NCBI RefSeq assembly: GCF_032716425.1
Contig: NZ_CP090420.1
Span: forward strand, 1 to 64,000
DNA length: 64,000 nt
From: Pseudoalteromonas sp. N1230-9
GTDB taxonomy: Bacteria > Pseudomonadota > Gammaproteobacteria > Enterobacterales > Alteromonadaceae
Direction of reading: 5' to 3'
Position 1 is the stretch's first letter. Every line of letters begins with the position of its first letter. Both the position numbers and the translations under genes were made by a program. Positions 3,815 to 14,481 of the stretch are shown piece after piece. The notes beneath the pieces were generated by a model. It was not told where the DNA came from and made no database searches. It was given only the letters and a program-made list of their open reading frames with translations.

Positions 3815-4135
3815 CTAAAATGGGACCTTACGAACAATAATGTCTTTAAACATCACCCAGTCGCCAATAAAGCTATAAAAAGGGTGAGTAAATGTGGCGG
3901 GGCGGTTTTTTTCAAAAAAGAAGTGACCTACCCAAGCAAAACCGTAGCCGATTAGCGGGCAGAAAATGAGCCAACTGTATTGTTGTTGGTAAAGTGCAGC
4001 AAATAAGATAGCCAACACAAACCAGCTGCCAATGAAGTGTAAGCGTCGACATACCTTATTTTTGTGTTCTTGTAAGTAGTAAGGGTAAAACTCTTTAAAG
4101 TTCGCGAACTCGCGTTTACTTGCGACGGTGCCCAT
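3815..4135 (-). CDS. Mpo1-like (DUF962) membrane protein
   Basis: Small 106-residue membrane protein with two central hydrophobic helices and the conserved DUF962/YGL010w features: an early His region (CRRLHFIGSW) and the C-terminal motif WVGHFFFEKNRPATF. Yeast Mpo1 is an iron-dependent dioxygenase that removes one carbon from 2-hydroxy fatty acids; the histidines that bind iron there appear conserved here. GGAGA lies 8 bases before the ATG. First gene of the operon with the aldolase and symporter, divergent from an AraC regulator. Its bacterial substrate is not known to me. Confidence 0.82.
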   Translation of the reverse strand: MGTVASKREFANFKEFYPYYLQEHKNKVCRRLHFIGSWFVLAILFAALYQQQYSWLIFCPLIGYGFAWVGHFFFEKNRPATFTHPFYSFIGDWVMFKDIIVRKVPF

Positions 4136-4232
4136 ATTGTTGTCTCCGTTGTTAATTACAGGTTAACAATAGGCTTTTATTTTCTAACTTACTTGATATT
4201 ATAGGTCATTAAATTGTTTATTTGAGACACAT

Positions 4233-5192
4233 ATGCGTACCTTATCAAGCTGGTGGTTACGCGCCATGGCTGAGTCATTCAAGTGGCAAGGCTTACCCAT
4301 CAATGCGCTATTTTCACAAGCTCATATATCGCTGAATGATCTAAGCAGCCAAACAGCTCGTTATCCGCAAGCCAGTGTTAGTACGCTTTGGAAGCAAGCT
4401 CAGGCGATGTTGCCTGATATTCATTTAGGCATATATGTTGGTAGTAATATGAATGTGCGAGCCATACCTGTGGTAGGGATGGCGATTATTCAGTCAACGC
4501 AGTTACTCAGTGCCTTTCGGCTTATTTTACGCTATCAAAAGTTGATAGGTGATACGCATAATGTGTCGTTAATTGATCATGGTGCTGAGTATGAATTGCG
4601 CTTTAATTTTAGTGATGGTGAGCGTGATATGTCATTGTTAAGTTACGAGGCACCAATGGCATTTTGTTTGAAAATAGCGCGTACCGTAAAAGGAAAAAAC
4701 TGGCATCCATCGCGTATTTGTTTACAGCGCAAAGAGCATCTTGCTGAAATAAACGAGCATTTTAATTGCCCTGTCGAGTACGGAGCCAAAACTCACAGCT
4801 TATTTTTTTGTGAGCAAACCGATGCGCAACCGTTTATTGCGGGTCAAATCAAAGTTGCTACACAAAGTAATGTGAGTCATGTTTTGCGTATTTTACTTGA
4901 AGAGCATTTAACCTTAGGGGAGTGTGGTTGCAAAGATATGGCTAAGGCGCTCAATATGAGTGAAAAAACCTTGCAACGGCGTCTTGCTAAAGAAGGAACT
5001 AACTTCAGTCAAGAACTGGCGAATTTAAGACAACAAAGAAGCACTACACTTTTAGTTGAAACAGACTTATCACTTACTGAAATAGCGTTTTTATGTGGTT
5101 ACTCAGAAGTGAGCGCATTTTATCATGCATTCAATCGTTGGCACGGAATGTCACCTAAAATATACAGACAACAAATAAAGATGCATGAATAA
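4233..5192 (+). CDS. AraC-family transcriptional regulator
   Basis: Transcription factor of 319 residues. The N-terminal two thirds match the arabinose-binding-like (Arabinose_bd) domain typical of the OruR/ArgR-type AraC subgroup; the C-terminal 90 residues hold the double helix-turn-helix, with the signature LSLTEIAFLCGYSEVSAFYH near residues 275-295 followed by FNRWHGMSPKIYR. It is transcribed away from the Mpo1-aldolase-symporter operon across 97 bp, so it is the obvious candidate to control it in response to that pathway's substrate (inference). A strong bidirectional hairpin follows the stop codon. Confidence 0.92.
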   Translation: MRTLSSWWLRAMAESFKWQGLPINALFSQAHISLNDLSSQTARYPQASVSTLWKQAQAMLPDIHLGIYVGSNMNVRAIPVVGMAIIQSTQLLSAFRLILRYQKLIGDTHNVSLIDHGAEYELRFNFSDGERDMSLLSYEAPMAFCLKIARTVKGKNWHPSRICLQRKEHLAEINEHFNCPVEYGAKTHSLFFCEQTDAQPFIAGQIKVATQSNVSHVLRILLEEHLTLGECGCKDMAKALNMSEKTLQRRLAKEGTNFSQELANLRQQRSTTLLVETDLSLTEIAFLCGYSEVSAFYHAFNRWHGMSPKIYRQQIKMHE

Positions 5193-5220
5193 ACCGAGTG
5201 CATTGCAGCACTCGGTTTTT
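5191..5220. terminator. Bidirectional Rho-independent terminator
   Basis: Perfect stem ACCGAGTGC / GCACTCGGT with a 6-base loop, flanked by A residues on the left and a run of T on the right. It sits between the convergent AraC regulator gene and the TonB receptor gene and could stop both. Confidence 0.88.
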
Positions 5221-5235
5221 ATCGCATCCTATTTG

Positions 5236-7416
5236 TTAAAATTGATAGCTCACACTTGCAGAAATATTACGTCCTGCGCTTTCTAAGCCCTCTAAACTGT
5301 CTGATGCTGAGTGGTCAGTAAGGCTACCATGCTGATAGTAGGTTTTGTCGAATAGGTTACGTACTGCGATGTTTAAACTTGCTTGACCAAAGTTAGCGCG
5401 TGCTAACCAATCGACTGTCCCATACCCTGGGGTTTGATATTTACCTGGATTTACCTTCGTCATTTTCTTCGCGAAATTAATGATTAAATCACTGCCGTAA
5501 ATATCCCCTTGGAAAGAGAGACCTAAATTACCTGATAATGGACTAATTGAACTGATGTATTCATCGGTTTCATCATTTTTACCGTCTTGGTAACTGGCAT
5601 TCAAAAATACAGAGAGTGTGTCCGATGCGTAGTAGGTTGTTGAAAATTCAGCCCCTTTAATCGTTACTGACTCAATATTTTTATACTGATATTGGTCATG
5701 AATATAGGCAAGTGAACCATCATTATTGAAAACGGTTTCGCGCTGGATTAGTTCAGTTGCTAAAAAGTCATCAAACTCGTTATAGAATAAAGCGGCTGAT
5801 ACTGTGAAATCACCTAGGTGACCACGAAGACCAAGCTCATAAGTGTCACTTTTTTCAGGATCCAAGTCATCTGCTGGTAAAACTTCATAAATGTACTCAG
5901 CCGTGGGCTGGTTGTAGTGCTCAATGTAAGCTAGGTCGTAGGCAGGTACTTTAAAGCCCTGGCCGTATTGTGCATAAGCACTAAGCATATCATTGATATA
6001 ATATAGGCCACCTAAATTAAACGAGACATTATGTTCATCAATTTTAGCGTATTCTTCACCATCTGTTTTTAGTACCCCGTTAGGATCCATACTGTAGTAA
6101 TCGAAACGAGCGCCTGGGGTAATAACAAGTGTGTCGTTTAGTAGTTTGATTTCGTCATTTATGAATATGCCAGCGCGTAAAGTGTCATTTTTAGGGAACT
6201 TTTGGCTGGTGTCGTCTTTGGTTGTTTCACCTTCAACTTCACGATATTCATGCACAGTACGCAAGCTTTCAGTTGTTTCAATATCAACGCCATAACCAAG
6301 AGTATGCTGCTTATTTAGTGCTTTACTAGCGTGTGAAATTAAGCCATAAGTCGTTTGCTCATATGTACCTGTTTTCCACATATCACGCATTTCAACAGTG
6401 CCGAACATGGGCGCGTTAATATCAAGTAAGGCATATTCTTGGTCGTCTTGGCGATTATTAGTATAGTACGCGTTGAATTGAGCCGAATCCCAAAAAGCAT
6501 TGCCACTATTGTTATTGTAACTAATGCGGTATGAATCACTGTCTTTTTCAGTTTGGGTATTTTCTTGTGCAATATTGTAGCCGTACTGAGCTAATCCTCT
6601 GAAGTAAGAAAGTAAACCGTCAGCGCTATCACCATTGACATCTTGGCGCCATAAATCCGCTGCGAAGCTGAGATAATCTTGCTCGTTTAAATTGTATTTC
6701 AATTTATAAAGTAAGCTTTGAGAGTCAATATCGAACGGCGCATTGTTGCTGTGTTTGGTTTGCTCTTCTTCGCCATCACGAGCGGTAATGCTAAGTAAAT
6801 GGTCAAAGTTACCGTGCTGAGCATATAGGGTTGCTCCTAGGCTTGCTTGGCTGTCAAGGTCGCTGTAACCCAACTTTACACGAGCACCAAATTGTTCACT
6901 CTCTTTTAAGTAATCACTCGCATCTTTAGTTGTAAAAACAACGATACCTCCTAAAGCATCAGAACCATACAGGGAGGAGGCAGCTCCTTTAGCGATTTCT
7001 ACCTGCTTTAGAGTCTCTGTATCGATAAATCCGCGGCCAACAATATCATTCAGACCATCGGCACCATAGCCTTCATTCATGCGCATGCCGTCTTTAATCA
7101 TCAAAATACGGTCAGATCCCATACCACGCACCTGAATATTTTGTGCTCCACCAACTCGACCAGTAATTTGGATACTAGGATCATACATAAATAATTGGCT
7201 CATATCGGTAACGACTTGTTGCTGGATATCTTCACTGCTTAAAACAGAGATACTTGCGGCAACATCTTTTAACGGTTTTTCTGTGCGAGAGCCACTAACA
7301 ACAATGACTTCTAGGTCATCGTTTTTGATATTTTCGTCTGCAAATACAGGCATTGCGGAGCCGGCAATAATTGTTGCGATTAACATGCTAAGCGTATTTG
7401 GTTTTGTATAGCGCAT
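5236..7416 (-). CDS. TonB-dependent receptor, haem/haemoglobin type
   Basis: Outer-membrane active transporter of 726 residues with a signal peptide (cleavage probably after PVFA, about residue 26). A TonB box-like stretch (DLEVIVVSGSR) is followed by the plug domain (about 50-170, with GMGSDRILMIKDGMR) and a 22-strand barrel ending in the C-terminal aromatic SYQF. The segment YGQGFKVPAYDLAYIEHYN corresponds to the FRAP-NPNL region of haem receptors, in the haemoglobin/transferrin/lactoferrin receptor family. It is divergent from an ExbB-like/DUF2149/CobN-like operon, an arrangement like the hmu haem operons. Haem as ligand is inferred; cobalamin or another tetrapyrrole is the main alternative. 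Confidence 0.85.
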   Translation of the reverse strand: MRYTKPNTLSMLIATIIAGSAMPVFADENIKNDDLEVIVVSGSRTEKPLKDVAASISVLSSEDIQQQVVTDMSQLFMYDPSIQITGRVGGAQNIQVRGMGSDRILMIKDGMRMNEGYGADGLNDIVGRGFIDTETLKQVEIAKGAASSLYGSDALGGIVVFTTKDASDYLKESEQFGARVKLGYSDLDSQASLGATLYAQHGNFDHLLSITARDGEEEQTKHSNNAPFDIDSQSLLYKLKYNLNEQDYLSFAADLWRQDVNGDSADGLLSYFRGLAQYGYNIAQENTQTEKDSDSYRISYNNNSGNAFWDSAQFNAYYTNNRQDDQEYALLDINAPMFGTVEMRDMWKTGTYEQTTYGLISHASKALNKQHTLGYGVDIETTESLRTVHEYREVEGETTKDDTSQKFPKNDTLRAGIFINDEIKLLNDTLVITPGARFDYYSMDPNGVLKTDGEEYAKIDEHNVSFNLGGLYYINDMLSAYAQYGQGFKVPAYDLAYIEHYNQPTAEYIYEVLPADDLDPEKSDTYELGLRGHLGDFTVSAALFYNEFDDFLATELIQRETVFNNDGSLAYIHDQYQYKNIESVTIKGAEFSTTYYASDTLSVFLNASYQDGKNDETDEYISSISPLSGNLGLSFQGDIYGSDLIINFAKKMTKVNPGKYQTPGYGTVDWLARANFGQASLNIAVRNLFDKTYYQHGSLTDHSASDSLEGLESAGRNISASVSYQF

Positions 7417-7500
7417 GGTTGAATTCCTTTAGGTGCTTTATTTGTATACAGCGAGCTGCTTCATTTTTTGGGGAATAATACGCTTATTGTTAGAAAGATC

Positions 7501-7531
7501 AATGCAAATAATAATTGTTCCTATTTGCATT
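7501..7531. promoter_or_regulatory. Perfect inverted repeat in divergent promoter region
   Basis: Ten-base arms AATGCAAATA and TATTTGCATT match perfectly across an 11-base spacer. The element sits midway between the divergent haem-type receptor and the ExbB-like/CobN-like operon, so a single dimeric regulator could control both. It is A+T rich like a Fur site, but by eye only about 11 of 19 positions fit the Fur consensus, so another regulator is possible. Confidence 0.5.
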
Positions 7532-7592
7532 ATTGTAATCTTTCATTAATTGCCGTACATTTGCTGTCGAAGAAATCTAACAAGGTATTAAT

Positions 7593-8120
7593 GTGAATAT
7601 CCAAATAATCGAACAACTTATGGCTGATGTCTCTGCGCTTTTAATGGCACCTGTCATCTTAGTTATATCTGTACTTTTTATTTATGCGTTTTTTGCCGCA
7701 GGACGATTTGTCTCTGAATATTTAATCAGAAGAAAAAACCAACTTGCTTATCAAAAAGATATAGATAACAAAGCTGTAAATAATTATAACGGCTTTGATG
7801 TTCATAACTATTTTGTGGCAAATCCAGATGCATCAGAAGATGAATTAGAGGTTTTTGCGCTTAAAAAGCTTGAAGTACTCAGAGTTGTTACCCGTATTGC
7901 GCCAATGCTTGGCCTTATTGCAACGATGATTCCGATGGGACCAGCGCTAAAAGCGCTGGCAGATGGGAATATTCAGGGCATTAGTGAGAATTTGATCATT
8001 GCTTTCGCTGCGGTTATCTGGGGTTTGGTTATCTCTACTCTAACCTTTTGGCCAGCATCAATTAAAAAACGCTGGTGCGCTCAAGAGCTCATTAATATTC
8101 GTAAATTAAGAGGGCTGTAA
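7593..8120 (+). CDS. MotA/TolQ/ExbB-family proton channel protein
   Basis: Inner-membrane protein of 175 residues with three hydrophobic helices (about 15-40, 95-120 and 130-155) and the family pattern VTRIAPMLGLIATMIPMGPA, matching the conserved TolQ/ExbB helix region LGLLGTVxGM. ExbB, TolQ and MotA proteins form proton-conducting pentamers that drive a partner with one membrane helix. The start is GTG at 7593 with AAGG seven bases upstream; no ATG fits better. It lies one base before the DUF2149 gene and upstream of the CobN-like gene, so the three are one operon. It is not next to a normal exbD or tonB, so it probably serves this cluster specifically (inference). Confidence 0.85.
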   Translation: MNIQIIEQLMADVSALLMAPVILVISVLFIYAFFAAGRFVSEYLIRRKNQLAYQKDIDNKAVNNYNGFDVHNYFVANPDASEDELEVFALKKLEVLRVVTRIAPMLGLIATMIPMGPALKALADGNIQGISENLIIAFAAVIWGLVISTLTFWPASIKKRWCAQELINIRKLRGL

Positions 8121-8121
8121 T

Positions 8122-8466
8122 ATGCGTTTTTTAGACGAAGATGAAGAATTAAACCCGATTGTGAGTGCCGTAAATTTAGTGGATGTATTTTTAGTCATTA
8201 TCGCGGCGTTGTTGATTGCTATTGCGCAAAACCCTTTAAGTCCGTTTACAGCAGAAAATGTGACTGTTGTTAAAAATGCGGGTGAGCCAAATATGGAAGT
8301 AATTGTTAAAGAAGGCAAAGAGATTAAGCAGTATAAATCGAATGGGGAAATAGGTTCAGGTGAAGGTATGCGTGCTGGAGTCGCTTATAAAATGGCCGAT
8401 GGTAGTTTTGTTTATATACCTGAAAAAGGCGAAGCCACAACCAGTAGGCAAGAGAGCGGACAATGA
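8122..8466 (+). CDS. DUF2149 domain protein, ExbD-like partner
   Basis: Protein of 114 residues with a short acidic cytoplasmic N-terminus, one membrane helix (about 18-37, NLVDVFLVIIAALLIAIA) and a hydrophilic domain of about 70 residues that should face the periplasm. The topology mirrors ExbD/TolR, and the helix carries an Asp (VNLVD) as in those stator partners. DUF2149 genes are known beside ExbB-like and CobN-like genes in haem-uptake operons (hmuV position). Only one base separates it from the ExbB-like stop, and its own TGA overlaps the ATG of the CobN-like gene, so translation is coupled. Exact role unknown. Confidence 0.85.
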   Translation: MRFLDEDEELNPIVSAVNLVDVFLVIIAALLIAIAQNPLSPFTAENVTVVKNAGEPNMEVIVKEGKEIKQYKSNGEIGSGEGMRAGVAYKMADGSFVYIPEKGEATTSRQESGQ

Positions 8467-11400
8467 TGAGAATACTAACATTCCTGTTGCTTTTATTGAG
8501 CTCATTAAATACATATGCAGAGCAAAAGCCAGAGGTACTGATCATGATGTCGGGCCACGTAGCTAAATCAAAAGGTGCGTTGCTAACAAGGCTTTCTGAA
8601 GATCAGCCGTTTACGTTCACAAATTTTAGTAGTAAAGGCAAAACTGACGAGGAAATTAAACTCGCGTGGCAAAATGCAGATCTGATTTTGCTAGATGGTA
8701 TTAACCCTGCGCTTTCAAAATATATGTTTACTAAATATCAGCCCTATTTAAGTGAATACCCCAATGTGCCAGTCATTTCACTTGGGGATATGGACAATTC
8801 TGCAATGAATACAGGCTTATCTGAGCAGCAGCATACTCGCCTTGGCAGCTATTACAATAATGCCGGTCGCGATAATTACCGAAATATGATGCTTTATATT
8901 GCCAATGCAATTTTTAAATTATCAGATGTGCCTGCAGAGCCTGTTAAAGTGATTCCAGACGTTGGTTTATATCACCCTGAGTTTGACGGCCATGTGAGTG
9001 CTGACGAAACTCGCTTTTTTAACTGGTTAGATGTTAAAAGTACGCAACCAGTGATAGCGATAGCGGTACATCGCTCTGTGATTGATTATGAGCAACAGCA
9101 AGTCGTAGATGGGTTAATTTCTGGGCTTGAAAATAAAGGAGCAAAAGCATTTGCATTCTTCTTTGAAGGGAATGACGAGGCGCTCACCTACCCAGAGTTA
9201 CTGACAGATGAAGCTGGTGCTCGGGTTGACCTAATAATTAATTATCGCTCTTTGCATTATGTAGAAAAACGCCGTGCTGAGTTTATGAAAATAGGTGTAC
9301 CTGTGATCCATGCTCTTAACTACACCGATGGCGATGAGCAAGCATTTGACCAAGATCATACGGGTGTATCACCTTCACTGACTCCGTTTTTTTTGGTCAT
9401 GCCAGAAGATACAGGAAGTACCGACCCAATCATTATCGCAGCAAATGATAAAGGCCGCAAAGTGGCTATTCGTTATCAACTTGATGCACTGATTGAACGT
9501 GCATTTAATCACGCGAACCTTGCACATATTAATAATGCGGATAAAAAAGTCGCTACTTTTATATGGAATTACCCGCCAGGAGAAAAAAATATTGGCGCTG
9601 CTTTTTTAGATGTTCCAAGCTCAATTGCTAATATAGCAAAAGCCATGCAAGCAAAAGGTTATCAAGTTAAGCAAACTGATACAGCAAGTTTAGTCGAGCA
9701 AGCGGGCAAATTATTGCGGCCGTATTATCGTGGTGAAGATGCCGAAATGCTTGTTGAAATGGGGCTTGCTGATTATTTACCACTCACTACATATCAAACA
9801 TGGTTTGATACACTACCTAATGAAGTGACTCAACCTATTATTGATAAGTATGGGCAGCCCAATGAAAGCACTATGCTGAGAATGCATAACGGACAAATGA
9901 TGTTTGTGATTCCACGTATGGAGTTAGGCAATATGATTGTGCTGCCACAAGGTGTGCGCGGTGAGACAGCCAAAGAGCATGCGGCCCAGTATCACAGTAC
10001 AAAATCGGTTATAAATCATAGTTACTTGGCTATTTATTTATATGCACGTGACGTATTTAACGCTGATGCAATTGTGCATTTAGGCACGCATGGCTCACAA
10101 GAGTGGTTAAGTGGCAAAGAGCGGGGCTTATCGGTTTATGATGCTCCTAATTTGGCAATCGGTAATATCCCTGTTTTCTATCCATACATTATCGATAATG
10201 TGGGAGAAGCCATGCAAGCAAAGCGTCGTGGACGTGCCACCATGATAAGCCATCTAACTCCAGGTTTTGCAAAAGCGGGCTTATACAGCGAAGTTGCAAA
10301 ACTGAATGAGCTGATCACCAACTATTTAATGTTGGATAATGGGCAAACAAAATCAAATACGCAGCAAGAGATAGTTAAGCTTGCTAAGCAGTTAAATATG
10401 TTAAAAGATCTAGAGCTCGATGACGCGACACTCACCGCTCAATTTGCCAATAAAGTGACTGTACTACAAGATCACCTCAATACACTTGCGCAAATGAGTC
10501 AACCTCTGGGTATTCATACATTTGGCGAACTACCCGTTGATGCACACCTTTACACCACTATTTTGCAAATGCTGGGTGACGAATTTACGCAAAAAGCGGG
10601 TGAATTTGAGCGTGAAATAGGTATAGCAATAGCTCCCTCTGAGCATGAAGATGAGCGTAAAGTAATAAAGTTACAAGCCTTAGATGGTTTTCAGTTGCTT
10701 GCTCGTGTGCTTGGCGATAACCCTGACTTCGTTATTCCTCCATCATTACAAAGCGATGTCACTTTAGCTAAAGAATATTGGCAAAACTTTCATAAGAGCG
10801 AAGAAATATCAGGGCTATTGAATGGTCTTGATGGTCAATATATTCCTGTTAGCCATGGTAATGATCCAATTAGAAACCCGTCAGCAGTGCCCACAGGACG
10901 TAACTTAATTGGTTTTAATCCCGCTAAAGTTCCGTCTAAAGAAGCGTATGAGGCTGGGGTGAAAATGTTGGATCAAACAATTGCCCAGTATCAGGCTGAA
11001 CAGGGGCGTTACCCTAAAAAGCTCGCTTTTTCATTGTGGTCACTTGAAACCATGCGCCACCAAGGCGCGTTAGAAGCACAAATTCTTCATGCCATGGGTA
11101 TTAAGCCAAAATGGAATAAGCAAGGCAACATTGTTGGAACAGAGATTATTCCTTACTCAGAACTTGGTAGGCCACGTATCGATGTGGTGGTCTCTGCAAC
11201 AGGCTTATACCGTGATGCATTTCCTAACGTCATGTTATGGATTGCAGAAGCGATAGATAAAGTTGCAAAAATGAAAGAAGACAATAACTTTGTGTATCGT
11301 CACTCAATGTCTTTAAAGCAAAACTTATTAGACCAAGGGAAAAGTGAAGAAGACGCAGATTATCTCTCATCATTGCGTATTTTCTCTAACGAAACCGGTG

Positions 11401-12365
11401 CATATGGAACTGGCCTAGCTGGTGGAAGTCTTGCATCTGATACTTGGCAAGACGATAGTAAACTCGCTAATTTGTATCTTGAGCGAATGGGCTTTGGTTT
11501 TGGTAAAGACGAAGCTCGTTGGAGTGAAAACCTGTCTGACACGGGCTTGTATAGTAAGGTGTTGTCTGGCACTGATGGAGTGGTCTTTTCTCGTTCGAGT
11601 AATTTGTATGCGTTAATGACTAATGATGATCCGTTTCAGTATTTTGGCGGCATAGGCTTGGCTGTGCGTCATATTGATGGAAAAACGCCACAAATGTATG
11701 TCTCTAACTTGCGACGTAAAGGCGATGAAAAAGTACAGACGCTCGAACAGTTCATTAGTAATGAAATGCGCAGTCGCTATTTCCACCCTCGTTGGATAAA
11801 AGCGATGCAAGATTCAGGTTATGCGGGGGCTACAGCGATGCTAGATCGTATGAATAACATGTGGGGCTGGGAAGTAATGACACCTGAAGCCGTAAGAGAT
11901 GACCAATGGCAAGAATTCTTCGAGGTCTATGTTGATGATAAGTATCAAATGCAAATACGAGAATTTTTTGAGCAACATAATCCAGAAGCATTAGCGCAGA
12001 TGATTGAACGTATGCTGGAGGCTGTTAGAAAAGGCTATTGGCAAGCCTCGCCTGAGACCTTACAGAAACTGCTTGAAAGATATACTGAGATAGCTAATCA
12101 GCATGATGTTGCTACAGACAATCAAACCTTTGTTGATTACGTGAAAGAGCAAAATGCTGGTTTTGGGCTCGCTCCCTTAATACCTAATCAAACATCCGAT
12201 ATAACCGCAAACTCCAGTGCGCAAACACAGCAAGTGAGTGGTCAAAAGCTTGAACAAATAGAGCAAAGTGAGCCTTTCGAGACTGATTACAAGTTATGGT
12301 GGTTGCTGGCAGGTATTTTCTTTGCTGGAATGGTAAGTCCATTCTTTTCACGAAGAGCTGTGTAA
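8463..12365 (+). CDS. CobN/BchH-like chelatase, membrane-anchored and exported (HmuS-like)
   Basis: Large protein of 1300 residues homologous to the big subunit of cobalt and magnesium chelatases. Family motifs include HLGTHGSQEWLSGKERGLS near residue 538 and ETGAYGTGL followed by SLASDTWQDD near 980-1000. Unlike cytosolic CobN, it begins with a signal peptide (MMRILTFLLLLLSSLNTYA) and ends with one helix (WWLLAGIFFAGMVSPFF) plus a basic tail, so the catalytic body should sit in the periplasm, tethered to the inner membrane. No CobS/CobT or ChlI/ChlD ATPase is near; the operon instead has an ExbB-like/DUF2149 pair. By analogy with HmuS of hmu operons it may insert or remove the metal of an imported tetrapyrrole, probably iron from haem. 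Annotation as cobaltochelatase would be misleading. Confidence 0.85.
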   Translation: MMRILTFLLLLLSSLNTYAEQKPEVLIMMSGHVAKSKGALLTRLSEDQPFTFTNFSSKGKTDEEIKLAWQNADLILLDGINPALSKYMFTKYQPYLSEYPNVPVISLGDMDNSAMNTGLSEQQHTRLGSYYNNAGRDNYRNMMLYIANAIFKLSDVPAEPVKVIPDVGLYHPEFDGHVSADETRFFNWLDVKSTQPVIAIAVHRSVIDYEQQQVVDGLISGLENKGAKAFAFFFEGNDEALTYPELLTDEAGARVDLIINYRSLHYVEKRRAEFMKIGVPVIHALNYTDGDEQAFDQDHTGVSPSLTPFFLVMPEDTGSTDPIIIAANDKGRKVAIRYQLDALIERAFNHANLAHINNADKKVATFIWNYPPGEKNIGAAFLDVPSSIANIAKAMQAKGYQVKQTDTASLVEQAGKLLRPYYRGEDAEMLVEMGLADYLPLTTYQTWFDTLPNEVTQPIIDKYGQPNESTMLRMHNGQMMFVIPRMELGNMIVLPQGVRGETAKEHAAQYHSTKSVINHSYLAIYLYARDVFNADAIVHLGTHGSQEWLSGKERGLSVYDAPNLAIGNIPVFYPYIIDNVGEAMQAKRRGRATMISHLTPGFAKAGLYSEVAKLNELITNYLMLDNGQTKSNTQQEIVKLAKQLNMLKDLELDDATLTAQFANKVTVLQDHLNTLAQMSQPLGIHTFGELPVDAHLYTTILQMLGDEFTQKAGEFEREIGIAIAPSEHEDERKVIKLQALDGFQLLARVLGDNPDFVIPPSLQSDVTLAKEYWQNFHKSEEISGLLNGLDGQYIPVSHGNDPIRNPSAVPTGRNLIGFNPAKVPSKEAYEAGVKMLDQTIAQYQAEQGRYPKKLAFSLWSLETMRHQGALEAQILHAMGIKPKWNKQGNIVGTEIIPYSELGRPRIDVVVSATGLYRDAFPNVMLWIAEAIDKVAKMKEDNNFVYRHSMSLKQNLLDQGKSEEDADYLSSLRIFSNETGAYGTGLAGGSLASDTWQDDSKLANLYLERMGFGFGKDEARWSENLSDTGLYSKVLSGTDGVVFSRSSNLYALMTNDDPFQYFGGIGLAVRHIDGKTPQMYVSNLRRKGDEKVQTLEQFISNEMRSRYFHPRWIKAMQDSGYAGATAMLDRMNNMWGWEVMTPEAVRDDQWQEFFEVYVDDKYQMQIREFFEQHNPEALAQMIERMLEAVRKGYWQASPETLQKLLERYTEIANQHDVATDNQTFVDYVKEQNAGFGLAPLIPNQTSDITANSSAQTQQVSGQKLEQIEQSEPFETDYKLWWLLAGIFFAGMVSPFFSRRAV

Positions 12366-12378
12366 TACATTGATTAGG

Positions 12379-12410
12379 CAAAGTAATACGTGATAGAGCG
12401 TATTACTTTG
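12379..12410. terminator. Long perfect hairpin after chelatase operon
   Basis: Twelve-base perfect arms, CAAAGTAATACG and CGTATTACTTTG, with an 8-base loop start 13 bases after the chelatase stop. There is no run of T on either side, so this is either a weak or factor-assisted terminator or a 3' stabilising structure. Confidence 0.5.
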
Positions 12411-12546
12411 CGTTAATAGTGAATTTTCTGTCTTCTTTATTGCAATAAATAAAATAGCGATTGCTAAACAATTAGTTGTTATCTAAAATTAGCCCGTAAG
12501 GATTATATATACACGAAAAACACTATCAAAGTATGAGGCTTGCTTA

Positions 12547-14481
12547 ATGCGAAACCTATCGCTACGCACTATTTTTATTAGTTTTGTATTAATCGCATTA
12601 TTTATTGTTACGGTAGTCAGTGCCTTAATCAATACGAGTCAATTTTCTAAACTCTATTATCAACAAACCGAAAAACAACTCTTACCTGATGCGGTAGGCA
12701 AGGTTGCCGCACAAATTGATGCGCAAATGCGTTATCCAATCTCAGTGTCACAGTCATTGGCAGAAAATCAAATGCTGCATACTTGGATGAACGAAGGAGA
12801 GAAGCGCTCGCCTATTCATCAGCGTGTAATGTCATACTTTGCTGACTTACAAAAGAAGAGCGGTGCATCATCGGTTTTTTGGGTGAGCAGTGATTCGATG
12901 AGTTATTACACTCAAGAGGGCTTTTTTAAGTCAATTTCGAGTAGTGAGCCACGAGATAGTTGGTTTTTTGATTTTTTAAATTCAGATAAACGCCAAGTCT
13001 TAGCTCTAGATGTGAGTGAGCAAGGCGGTCATCTGACTTTATACGTTAATACGTTGGTAGAAATTGCGGGTAAGCGCCTTGGCGTTGCGGGGCTTGGCTA
13101 TGATATTTCAGATATCTCAAATATTGTTACTTCACGTAAAATTGGTCAGCAAGGTTATTTATTTTTAATTGATGACTCTAAACGCATTATTGCTCACGAA
13201 AATGATGCATTTATTGGTAAGCAGATTTCAAATATTGCATCTTTAAGTGCGTTGCAAAACGTAACAAGTAGCAAAAGTGATGAATTTTCATTATCCCAAG
13301 CTGAATTAAATGGTCAGCAAGTATATGCCGGTGTAATGCCAATTACTGGTATGGGGCTGACTTTGGTTGCTGTGCAACCGAAAGAAGAAATTTCGAGCGC
13401 AATCAACGCTGTCGTTCTTATGTCAATTTTAGTGAGTGTGGTGCTTGCCGCTGTTTTTCTGATCCTTACTTTGTATTTTGCTAATTGGCTAAGCACTAAA
13501 ATACGCCGTGTGGGTGACGAGTTGTTAGGTATGGCAGGACAAGGGGGGGATCTAAGTAAACGTTTAGACGACAGTGTTGATAACGAGCTAGGTCATCTTG
13601 CTAAAGGCTTCAATGCTATCATAGGTAAAGTTGCAGAGCTGGTAGATGAAATTAGTGTGACTGAACGAGCGATGCGTGAAGGTATTGAAGAGTTGGCCAC
13701 GTTTGCTAATAAAACATTTGCTGCAACCGAAGATCAGCGTGCGCAAACAGATCAAGTTGCAACTGCGATTACAGAGATGGGCCAAACTATCAATGAAGTG
13801 TCTGATATTGCTCATCGTACAGCAAGCGACACCGAAGAAGCGGTAAAAGAAACTGTTGAAACGAACCATAGTATGGCCACAACAGCTAAAACAATGACTG
13901 AACTGAATGAAATTTTGCTCAATGTTGATAAAAGTATTGGTGAGTTTGCAAGCCAAGCTGCGGAAATAAACTCCGTGGTTGAAGTGATTAACGCTATCTC
14001 TGAACAAACAAACCTATTGGCATTAAATGCGGCCATTGAAGCGGCAAGAGCGGGTGAGCAAGGGCGTGGGTTTGCGGTCGTAGCAGATGAAGTACGTTCT
14101 CTTGCAAAGCGCACTCAAACTTCTACCTCGGAAATTCGCGAACAGGTCACACGATTACAAAGTTCTTCACTTCAATCTCAACAAGCAATCGCAGAAGGAA
14201 CACAAAGTAGTCAAAAAGTGACAGAGCTCACTCAGGTTGCTGTATCTGCATTGCAATCAATTCAACAAAAATTTGAAGTTATTAGCCAAGGGAATCATCA
14301 AGTTGCAGCAGCAACCGAAGAGCAGGGTACGGTTGTTGAGCATATTAATCAATCGGCTCATGACATTTCAGACAGTGCAACATCAATTCATGACAATGCT
14401 GAGCAACAACAGCAGGGTACGCAAAGCTTGTTATCGCGTGCACAGCACTTAAAAGACTTAGTAAGCCAGTTTAAGGTGTAA
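12547..14481 (+). CDS. Methyl-accepting chemotaxis protein with Cache sensor
   Basis: Transmembrane chemoreceptor of 644 residues. A first membrane helix (about 8-30) is followed by a large periplasmic domain (about 35-275) of Cache type, with the typical [20 protein letters not shown] stretch. A second helix (about 282-308), HAMP (about 308-365) and the signalling domain (about 370-640) come next. The conserved hairpin tip reads [20 protein letters not shown]. It should bind a small molecule in the periplasm and control CheA; Cache domains commonly bind amino acids or organic acids, but the ligand is not predictable here. No C-terminal CheR-binding pentapeptide is seen. Monocistronic. Confidence 0.93.

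Follow-up and report, generated by a model that had tools for sequence, protein, structure and literature searches.

The first 64,000 nt of contig 2 (0.90 Mb) of Pseudoalteromonas sp. N1230-9, a genome of two contigs and 4.63 Mb, carry an operon for an ExbB/TolQ-like protein, a DUF2149 protein and a CobN-like protein, divergent from a TonB-dependent receptor gene (Table 1). This whole stretch is called the window below. The best explanation of the set, to which we give an even chance, is a Fur-type-regulated module for periplasmic extraction of iron from haem, in which the CobN-like chelatase would be coupled to proton flow. We observed the gene content, the association of the genes across genomes, a tail helix on the CobN-like protein, a conserved operator and the exchange of the module for another haem-iron system. 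The gene content (ExbB-like protein, DUF2149, 1300-aa CobN homologue and divergent receptor) had been predicted earlier from the DNA alone, and the open reading frames (ORFs) and Pfam matches confirmed it. The ExbB-like and DUF2149 ORFs are 1 bp apart, and the DUF2149 and CobN-like ORFs overlap by 4 bp.

The CobN-like protein and its link to DUF2149

Among 147 genomes of the family, CobN-like genes occurred in 43 and DUF2149 in 42, and 48 of the 49 DUF2149 genes had a CobN-like gene within 3 kb. The sole exception, genome G134, has the two on separate contigs. Conversely, 50 of the 55 family CobN genes or gene pieces were near DUF2149; the other five were three on broken assemblies (G073 and G076), the one in G134 and one at locus L065, which encodes a soluble 1313-aa CobN with no hydrophobic stretch beside CobW and tetrapyrrole methylase genes. 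ExbB-DUF2149 of G134 stands on one contig and CobN with a receptor on another (loci L066 and L067), and no other family genome sampled has the set split in this way.

Beyond the family, the DUF2149 alignment was compared with genomes of 84,980 species, one for each, and at least 80 loci were kept; all counts of scan loci here and below are among the matches listed. A CobN-like gene was near DUF2149 at 70 of 80 loci across phyla, and at 69 of these 70 it lay within 650 bp. In 113 genomes of a Clostridia-type class, CobN or a piece of it lay no more than 4 kb from 16 of the 17 strong DUF2149 genes.

The DUF2149-linked CobN proteins were mostly tail-anchored, and the unlinked ones that were read were soluble. 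Among 61 full CobN-like proteins of the scan loci, a hydrophobic stretch was C-terminal in 58, N-terminal in 54 and mid-protein in 4. When 1.6 across 19 residues was used as the hydropathy cut-off, 14 of 16 linked family proteins had a C-terminal and 11 of 16 an N-terminal stretch, the window protein having the C-terminal one only; the remaining linked proteins, below the cut-off, showed shorter hydrophobic cores by eye. Thirteen of the 47 long CobN genes of the Clostridia-type class were near DUF2149. Both helices were present in 5 of the 6 linked full-length proteins read there (L202, whose tail is missing in the called frame, was counted as linked, and the half-CobN of L203 was not counted as full length), and neither helix was present in any of the 5 unlinked proteins read.

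The window protein matched PF02514 (CobN-Mg_chel) over model positions 2-1090 of 1090 (E=0, 1034 bits). Its N-terminus, MMRILTFLLLLLSSLNTYA-EQ, was judged by eye to be a signal sequence, which the hydropathy cut-off did not flag. Together with the tail helix found by hydropathy, this suggests that the protein is extracytoplasmic and held by its C-terminal helix, and it supports the exported, tail-anchored CobN homologue of the original prediction. The protein is homologous to the class I chelatases CobNST/ChlHID over the full CobN model but, unlike CobN and ChlH, which are cytosolic and lack an export signal or membrane tail, it appears to be exported and tail-anchored. It could still be an ordinary cytosolic cobaltochelatase that was misread, as NCBIfam NF004644 gives it the name cobN. 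However, the signal sequence, the tail helix, the lack of corrin genes next to the window gene and the lack of CobT make this hardly credible. The earlier suggestion to look for an AAA+ partner was thus followed for CobT, which was found in 0 of 17 genomes including its own, and not for CobS, ChlI and ChlD, which were not searched for. The window gene was the sole CobN/ChlH-family match in the whole genome.

We labelled the sub-types of the set A, B, H, E and D. Type A is that of the window, with a divergent receptor. Type B runs receptor, intermediate gene, ExbB, DUF2149, CobN, and the intermediate gene was HmuY-like (PF14064) in L062, the only one tested. Type H is L064, a receptor-HmuS-ExbB-DUF2149 set carrying true HmuS motifs; type E is L074; and type D is CobN-ExbB-DUF2149 with other neighbours. 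At L062 and L073, two different CobN-like genes stand in tandem behind one ExbB-DUF2149 pair.

By sequence, the nearest solved structure was HmuS (9d26). Its HFG(T/A)HG motif, with the catalytic His538, appears in the window protein as HLGTHG with His543, and this position was His in all 118 rows of the CobN-like alignment, which repeats some genes (3 in A, 4 in B/E and at least 2 in the rest). The D-type loci L068-L071 and L076 have HLGRHST. In place of the HmuS motif LSLDHxxEFMGG (His1209 and Glu1212), the window protein has MTNDDPFQYFGG, with Asp1056 for His1209, as in CobN. The HGR of the His254-Gly-Arg haem site of HmuS is absent from the window protein, and the Met79 region was alignable only to the HmuS-type L064; Met79 has no counterpart in the window protein. 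Because these signature residues are missing, the window protein is not HmuS itself; it is also shorter, with 1300 versus 1469 aa.

Another set of residues, His32, Arg262 and His265, was conserved in all 26 A rows, which represent 23 distinct genes, and in 10 of 12 B/E rows (7 of 8 genes, the E type being the exception), but in none of the 80 other CobN-like rows. These residues lie in the two parts of the protein, head and neck, where haem is bound in HmuS (by Met79 and His254), and we propose His32 and His265 as a candidate bis-His haem site. A motif before the tail helix, G[QK][KQ]L[ED] within the last 120 aa, was found in 32 of 38 A/B/E rows and in 0 of 80 others, some genes being counted twice.

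Receptor, regulation and the exchange with HugZ

The receptor scored above the NCBIfam cut-offs for TIGR01785 (372 bits) and TIGR01786 (375 bits), and its best match in the PDB was PhuR (2e-52). In a tree of 33 rows, from which the weak receptors of L232, L235, L244 and L247 had been dropped, the A-type receptors were sister to the receptor of HugZ locus L223 (support 100/100), which is 53% identical to that of the window, and the B-type receptors contained two HugZ-linked ones. Closely related receptors therefore feed either module.

All 18 A-type relatives have a 27-bp palindrome between -82 and -131 relative to ExbB; the count is not independent of the hand-made seed, which combined a Fur-like core with the flanks of one relative. 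The matrix from these relatives ranked the window site first in 64 kb (23.9 bits; 0 of 2000 shuffles as high). A 19-bp E. coli Fur box was rejected as a detector, since the window intergenic region matched it at 12 of 19 positions and 112 of 200 shuffles did as well; among the 18 relatives the match was 12 to 15 of 19, and the matrix alone found the site. No Zur site stood out, as the intergenic region matched a Zur consensus at 14 of 23 positions and 90 of 200 shuffles were as good. We also take it that there is no cobalamin riboswitch in 4000-13000, because no Rfam match was found there. A Shewanella Fur study lists only ordinary haem and TonB genes (PMC3790847; this and the other papers given by PMC number are cited from the parts of their text accessible to us).

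These results bear on whether the set might serve the acquisition of zinc, cobalt or corrinoids, in the manner of the Zur-regulated PA1922-PA1925 of Pseudomonas aeruginosa. That similar set of TonB receptor, CobN-like, ExbD-annotated and DUF2149 genes (PMC4542158) is induced by zinc depletion (PMC4542158, PMC9431628) and, unlike the window set, belongs to the Zur regulon; it was compared from the literature alone and not by sequence. Its existence, together with the 43 family genomes, shows that the set was overstated as unusual in a gammaproteobacterium (PMC4542158). D-type sets that sit in corrinoid clusters (L069, L070 and L071) also favour such a role. However, the window has a Fur-like rather than Zur-like site, a receptor of the haem family and no sign of a riboswitch, and we consider zinc, cobalt or corrinoid acquisition quite unlikely. 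Among the D-type neighbours were CobB, CobO, CbiB and CobC at L071, CobB and CobO at L069, and CbiZ at L070, with no corrinoid gene among the annotated neighbours of L068 and L076. At L069, L070 and L071 the sets thus stand amid cobalamin synthesis or CbiZ salvage genes, where an extracytoplasmic corrinoid step is possible.

In HutBCD with HugZ, which differs from the window module, haem is imported by an ATP-binding cassette (ABC) transporter and its ring is opened in the cytosol; the two share related receptors and presumably the same purpose. HugZ-like genes (TIGR04109, all below cut-off) were present in 29 and haem-type CobN in 40 of the 147 family genomes, the haem-type (non-D) set leaving out G046, G084 and G100. 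The two occurred together in one genome, that of the window, against 7.9 expected (P=0.0005). With TIGR04110 the overlap was 2 against 9.0 expected (P=0.0009), and with all 43 CobN genomes it was 2 of the 29 HugZ genomes against 8.5 expected (P=0.0016). In genera g15, g18 and g30 the listed members have either HugZ or the CobN set, and roughly half of the family genomes lack both. Of 29 HugZ loci, 25 were read: 23 had a substrate-binding protein (SBP), a FecCD permease and HugZ together, and 15 had a receptor matching that of the window at 220 bits or more. Relatives of HugZ may, according to one paper, act on b- or c-type haem.

The haem role of the module is well supported. Haem had been predicted as the likely substrate, and the receptor family, the Fur-like site and the replacement of HutBCD-HugZ-like sets all agree with this, as does the HmuY-like gene of L062. 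In the host genus, a CobN-like match was absent from 4 of 5 sampled genomes, and because of this patchiness the CobN set may have been acquired.

Table 1. Features of the receptor-operon region, in window coordinates
Feature	Position	Strand	Basis
TonB-dependent receptor, haem/haemoglobin family, divergent from operon	5236..7416	-	TIGR01785, TIGR01786
Fur-like 27-bp palindrome between divergent genes	7503..7529	.	Matrix of 17 distinct sites in 18 relatives
ExbB/TolQ-like membrane protein, 175 aa, GTG start	7593..8120	+	PF01618 MotA_ExbB, 2.3e-8
DUF2149, 114 aa, one membrane helix with Asp21	8122..8466	+	PF09919, 7.5e-29
CobN-like chelatase, 1300 aa, predicted tail-anchored and extracytoplasmic	8463..12365	+	PF02514 full length
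Putative signal sequence of CobN-like protein, residues 1-19	8463..8519	+	Judged by eye
His32 of CobN-like protein, N-terminal (head) part, candidate haem ligand	8556..8558	+	Conservation
His265 of CobN-like protein, neck part, candidate haem ligand	9255..9257	+	Conservation
His543 of CobN-like protein, counterpart of catalytic HmuS His538	10089..10091	+	Alignment to HmuS
Asp1056 of CobN-like protein, at place of HmuS His1209	11628..11630	+	Alignment
C-terminal membrane helix of CobN-like protein, residues 1278-1296	12294..12350	+	Hydropathy

The partner of the ExbB-DUF2149 pair

AlphaFold2 modelled the ExbB-like protein as long helices (predicted local distance difference test, pLDDT, 90). 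Its best Foldseek matches in the PDB were TolQ and ExbB (best E 0.008, none at or below 0.001), and hhalign matched it to the genome's own ExbB/TolQ-type proteins (94%, 1.4e-7). Of the polar Thr residues that such channels have in TM2 and TM3, Thr111 was kept in 35 of 35 aligned proteins, and position 141 is Val in the window protein. DUF2149 was modelled at low confidence (pLDDT 61) as a single helix (12-36). Pro12, Asn18, Asp21, Val25, Leu30, Gly86 and Gly94 were kept in 58 of 58 rows, so that DUF2149, like ExbD and TolR, has an Asp in its membrane helix. The pair resembles the ExbB-ExbD and TolQ-TolR stators in the homology of its ExbB-like member and in a one-helix partner with an invariant Asp. 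It differs from them in that the low-confidence DUF2149 model has no ExbD-like domain and in that a CobN-like protein stands where TonB or TolA would.

One reading is that the pair energises the adjacent receptor, with TonB from elsewhere, and that the CobN-like protein is an independent dechelatase. HmuU/HmuV of B. thetaiotaomicron were assigned this role (PMC10100974, PMC12583661), the receptor is the divergent neighbour of the operon, and 30 of the 70 scan CobN loci have a receptor match nearby. However, no match above 50 bits was found in the available stretch at the other 40 (the profile, built from ten receptors, may miss some), nor was a receptor found at 5 of the 6 D-type family loci read, and the window's own genome (G000) has 4 ordinary ExbD/TolR genes for 67 TonB plug domains. 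Furthermore, no plug domain was detected in any of ten monoderm genomes with DUF2149, five of which have the CobN set and five ExbB or DUF2149 beside other neighbours; five diderm genomes had 1 to 67 each. DUF2149 also occurs in methanogenic archaea: it is named in Methanobrevibacter and Methanosphaera records, and the Methanosarcina acetivorans genome has matches to DUF2149 and to CobN. Because the pair stays with CobN where no TonB-dependent receptor exists, serving a receptor is not its general job, and we regard receptor energising as unlikely. The monoderm cases point instead to a proton-powered chelatase, and the set's persistence in genomes without a plug domain bears out the predicted tie of the pair to the chelatase rather than the receptor.

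Alternatively, the trio might be an inner-membrane transporter of haem or porphyrin in which the CobN-like protein serves as a periplasmic binding protein or chaperone. Such transport was proposed for HmuTUV of P. gingivalis (PMC13227078), protoporphyrin IX (PPIX) is still released by B. fragilis btuS1 btuS2 mutants (PMC6460266), and the module takes the place not only of HugZ but also of an ABC importer. Against this, the window operon has no permease-like gene, and His543 is invariant. ExbB-type channels are also not known to pass tetrapyrroles, and we consider the transporter reading improbable.

The common partner of the pair is a tail-anchored extracytoplasmic protein, usually CobN-like, and we therefore infer that ExbB-DUF2149 acts on it. 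In the published texts accessible to us, the pair is given a role either with the receptor or in haem transport; for B. fragilis, the proteins are described as a group that may form a complex (PMC6460266). The nearest precedent that we found is a remark on P. gingivalis, whose authors leave room for an effect of HmuT, HmuU and HmuV on HmuS activity (PMC13227078). No proposal of a proton-driven chelatase was found in the literature searched, which included few subscription papers.

Clients other than full-length CobN were seen in the Clostridia-type class. Two CobN-linked weak DUF2149 genes adjoin a half-CobN of 456 and 486 aa, with a helix at each end, and the half-CobN of L203 has 564 aa. These proteins (L203:6414-8108, L209:9856-11226 and L210:5005-6465) hold the C-terminal part of the model only and stand beside ExbB-DUF2149. 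At the weak-type loci L212, L213 and L214, a protein of ~420 aa with a C-terminal helix is beside the pair; that of L212 (11313-12599) has Big_2, and L212 also has an ABC_cobalt component. At L198 (G205), a strong-type pair with no adjoining CobN is followed by a 136-aa one-helix protein. DUF2162 was present in 15 of 15 tested Clostridia-type genomes having the set.

Proposed mechanism and related systems

In the module that we propose, the receptor, judged from its family, would bring haem into the periplasm. The exported CobN-like protein, held by its C-terminal helix, would bind haem between head and neck, with His32 and His265 as candidate ligands, and, by analogy with HmuS, iron would be removed in the cavity of the body, near His543 and Asp1056. 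The ExbB-like and DUF2149 proteins may make up a channel of the stator type, by which proton flow would be coupled to the CobN-like protein through its C-terminal helix, and not to the receptor. This channel would do outside the cytoplasm what the AAA+ motor does for CobN and ChlH, and the module would replace haem import plus the haem oxygenase HugZ. We infer the location (from sequence), the chemistry, the proton coupling and the direction of the reaction.

Several findings weigh against this mechanism. The main internal evidence against simple coupling is ExbB position 141, which is Val in 12 of 12 A/B/E-type proteins; the other 23 aligned proteins (including the HmuS-type L064) and the genome's own ordinary ExbB all have Thr. 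In the haem types, either the gradient is used in another way or the pair has lost transport. The profile similarity of DUF2149 to ExbD is not significant (hhalign 0.5%, E 0.11), although the Asp aligns. HmuS Met79, His254 and His1209 lack counterparts in the window protein, recombinant HmuS was reported to turn haem into PPIX in vitro with NADH and without partners (PMC12583661), and the PPIX release by btuS1 btuS2 mutants (PMC6460266) counts here as well. The window's genome carries both haem systems, with HugZ and SBP-FecCD-ATPase genes on contig 1 (L220). As genomes are not independent, the HugZ exclusion was also counted by genus and was weaker (4 shared genera against 6.9 expected, P=0.075). 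Iron released in B. fragilis is taken up by FeoAB (PMC6460266); no FeoB_C match was found in the window's genome, and FeoB was dropped as the exit for released iron. A receptor is near the D-type L063 as well as the 30 scan loci. Finally, 31 of 33 weak DUF2149 genes of the Clostridia-type class and 8 scan loci had no CobN nearby. These 8 loci are from Clostridia or Coriobacteriia, three of them on short contigs, and the two further scan loci that lack CobN begin at a contig end; the neighbours that could be read were, among others, dockerin, Big_2 or surface proteins of unknown kind.

The window set is not unique, as HmuS/BtuS of Bacteroidota is a known cousin. BtuS is said to have been named by Rodionov in 2003. 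Like hmuYRSTUV, the set combines a gene for a membrane-bound protein of the CobN superfamily with MotA/TolQ/ExbB and DUF2149 genes and a haem receptor; hmu is induced by low iron, and the window site appears Fur-like. Unlike hmuYRSTUV, it has no HmuY or HmuT (no extra ORF of at least 90 aa lies within 5236-12365), its layout is divergent and ExbB Thr141 is lost. The predicted parallel with the hmu operons holds, while the view that a periplasmic CobN is unexpected went too far, as HmuS was published as membrane-bound (PMC12583661) and BtuS1/2 as predicted periplasmic and membrane-anchored (PMC6460266). In contrast to CobNST/ChlHID, a channel would take the place of the AAA+ motor.

New here are the DUF2149-CobN association, also in monoderms without a TonB plug domain, its link to the tail anchor, the Fur-like palindrome conserved in relatives and the near-exclusion of HugZ with sister receptors, as well as a proposed broader role for the pair beyond the HmuS/BtuS kind. 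Tentatively, and with somewhat less than an even chance, ExbB-DUF2149 may be a proton-driven stator whose dedicated clients, in diderms, monoderms and perhaps archaea, are CobN-like proteins that are tail-anchored and extracytoplasmic. Besides AAA+ motors, it would power the removal or insertion of tetrapyrrole metals, acting on haem in the window, on corrinoids in D-type sets and on half-CobN and other clients in Clostridia. For the family itself, the near-exclusion of HugZ suggests that much of this marine group obtains haem iron without ring opening or haem import.

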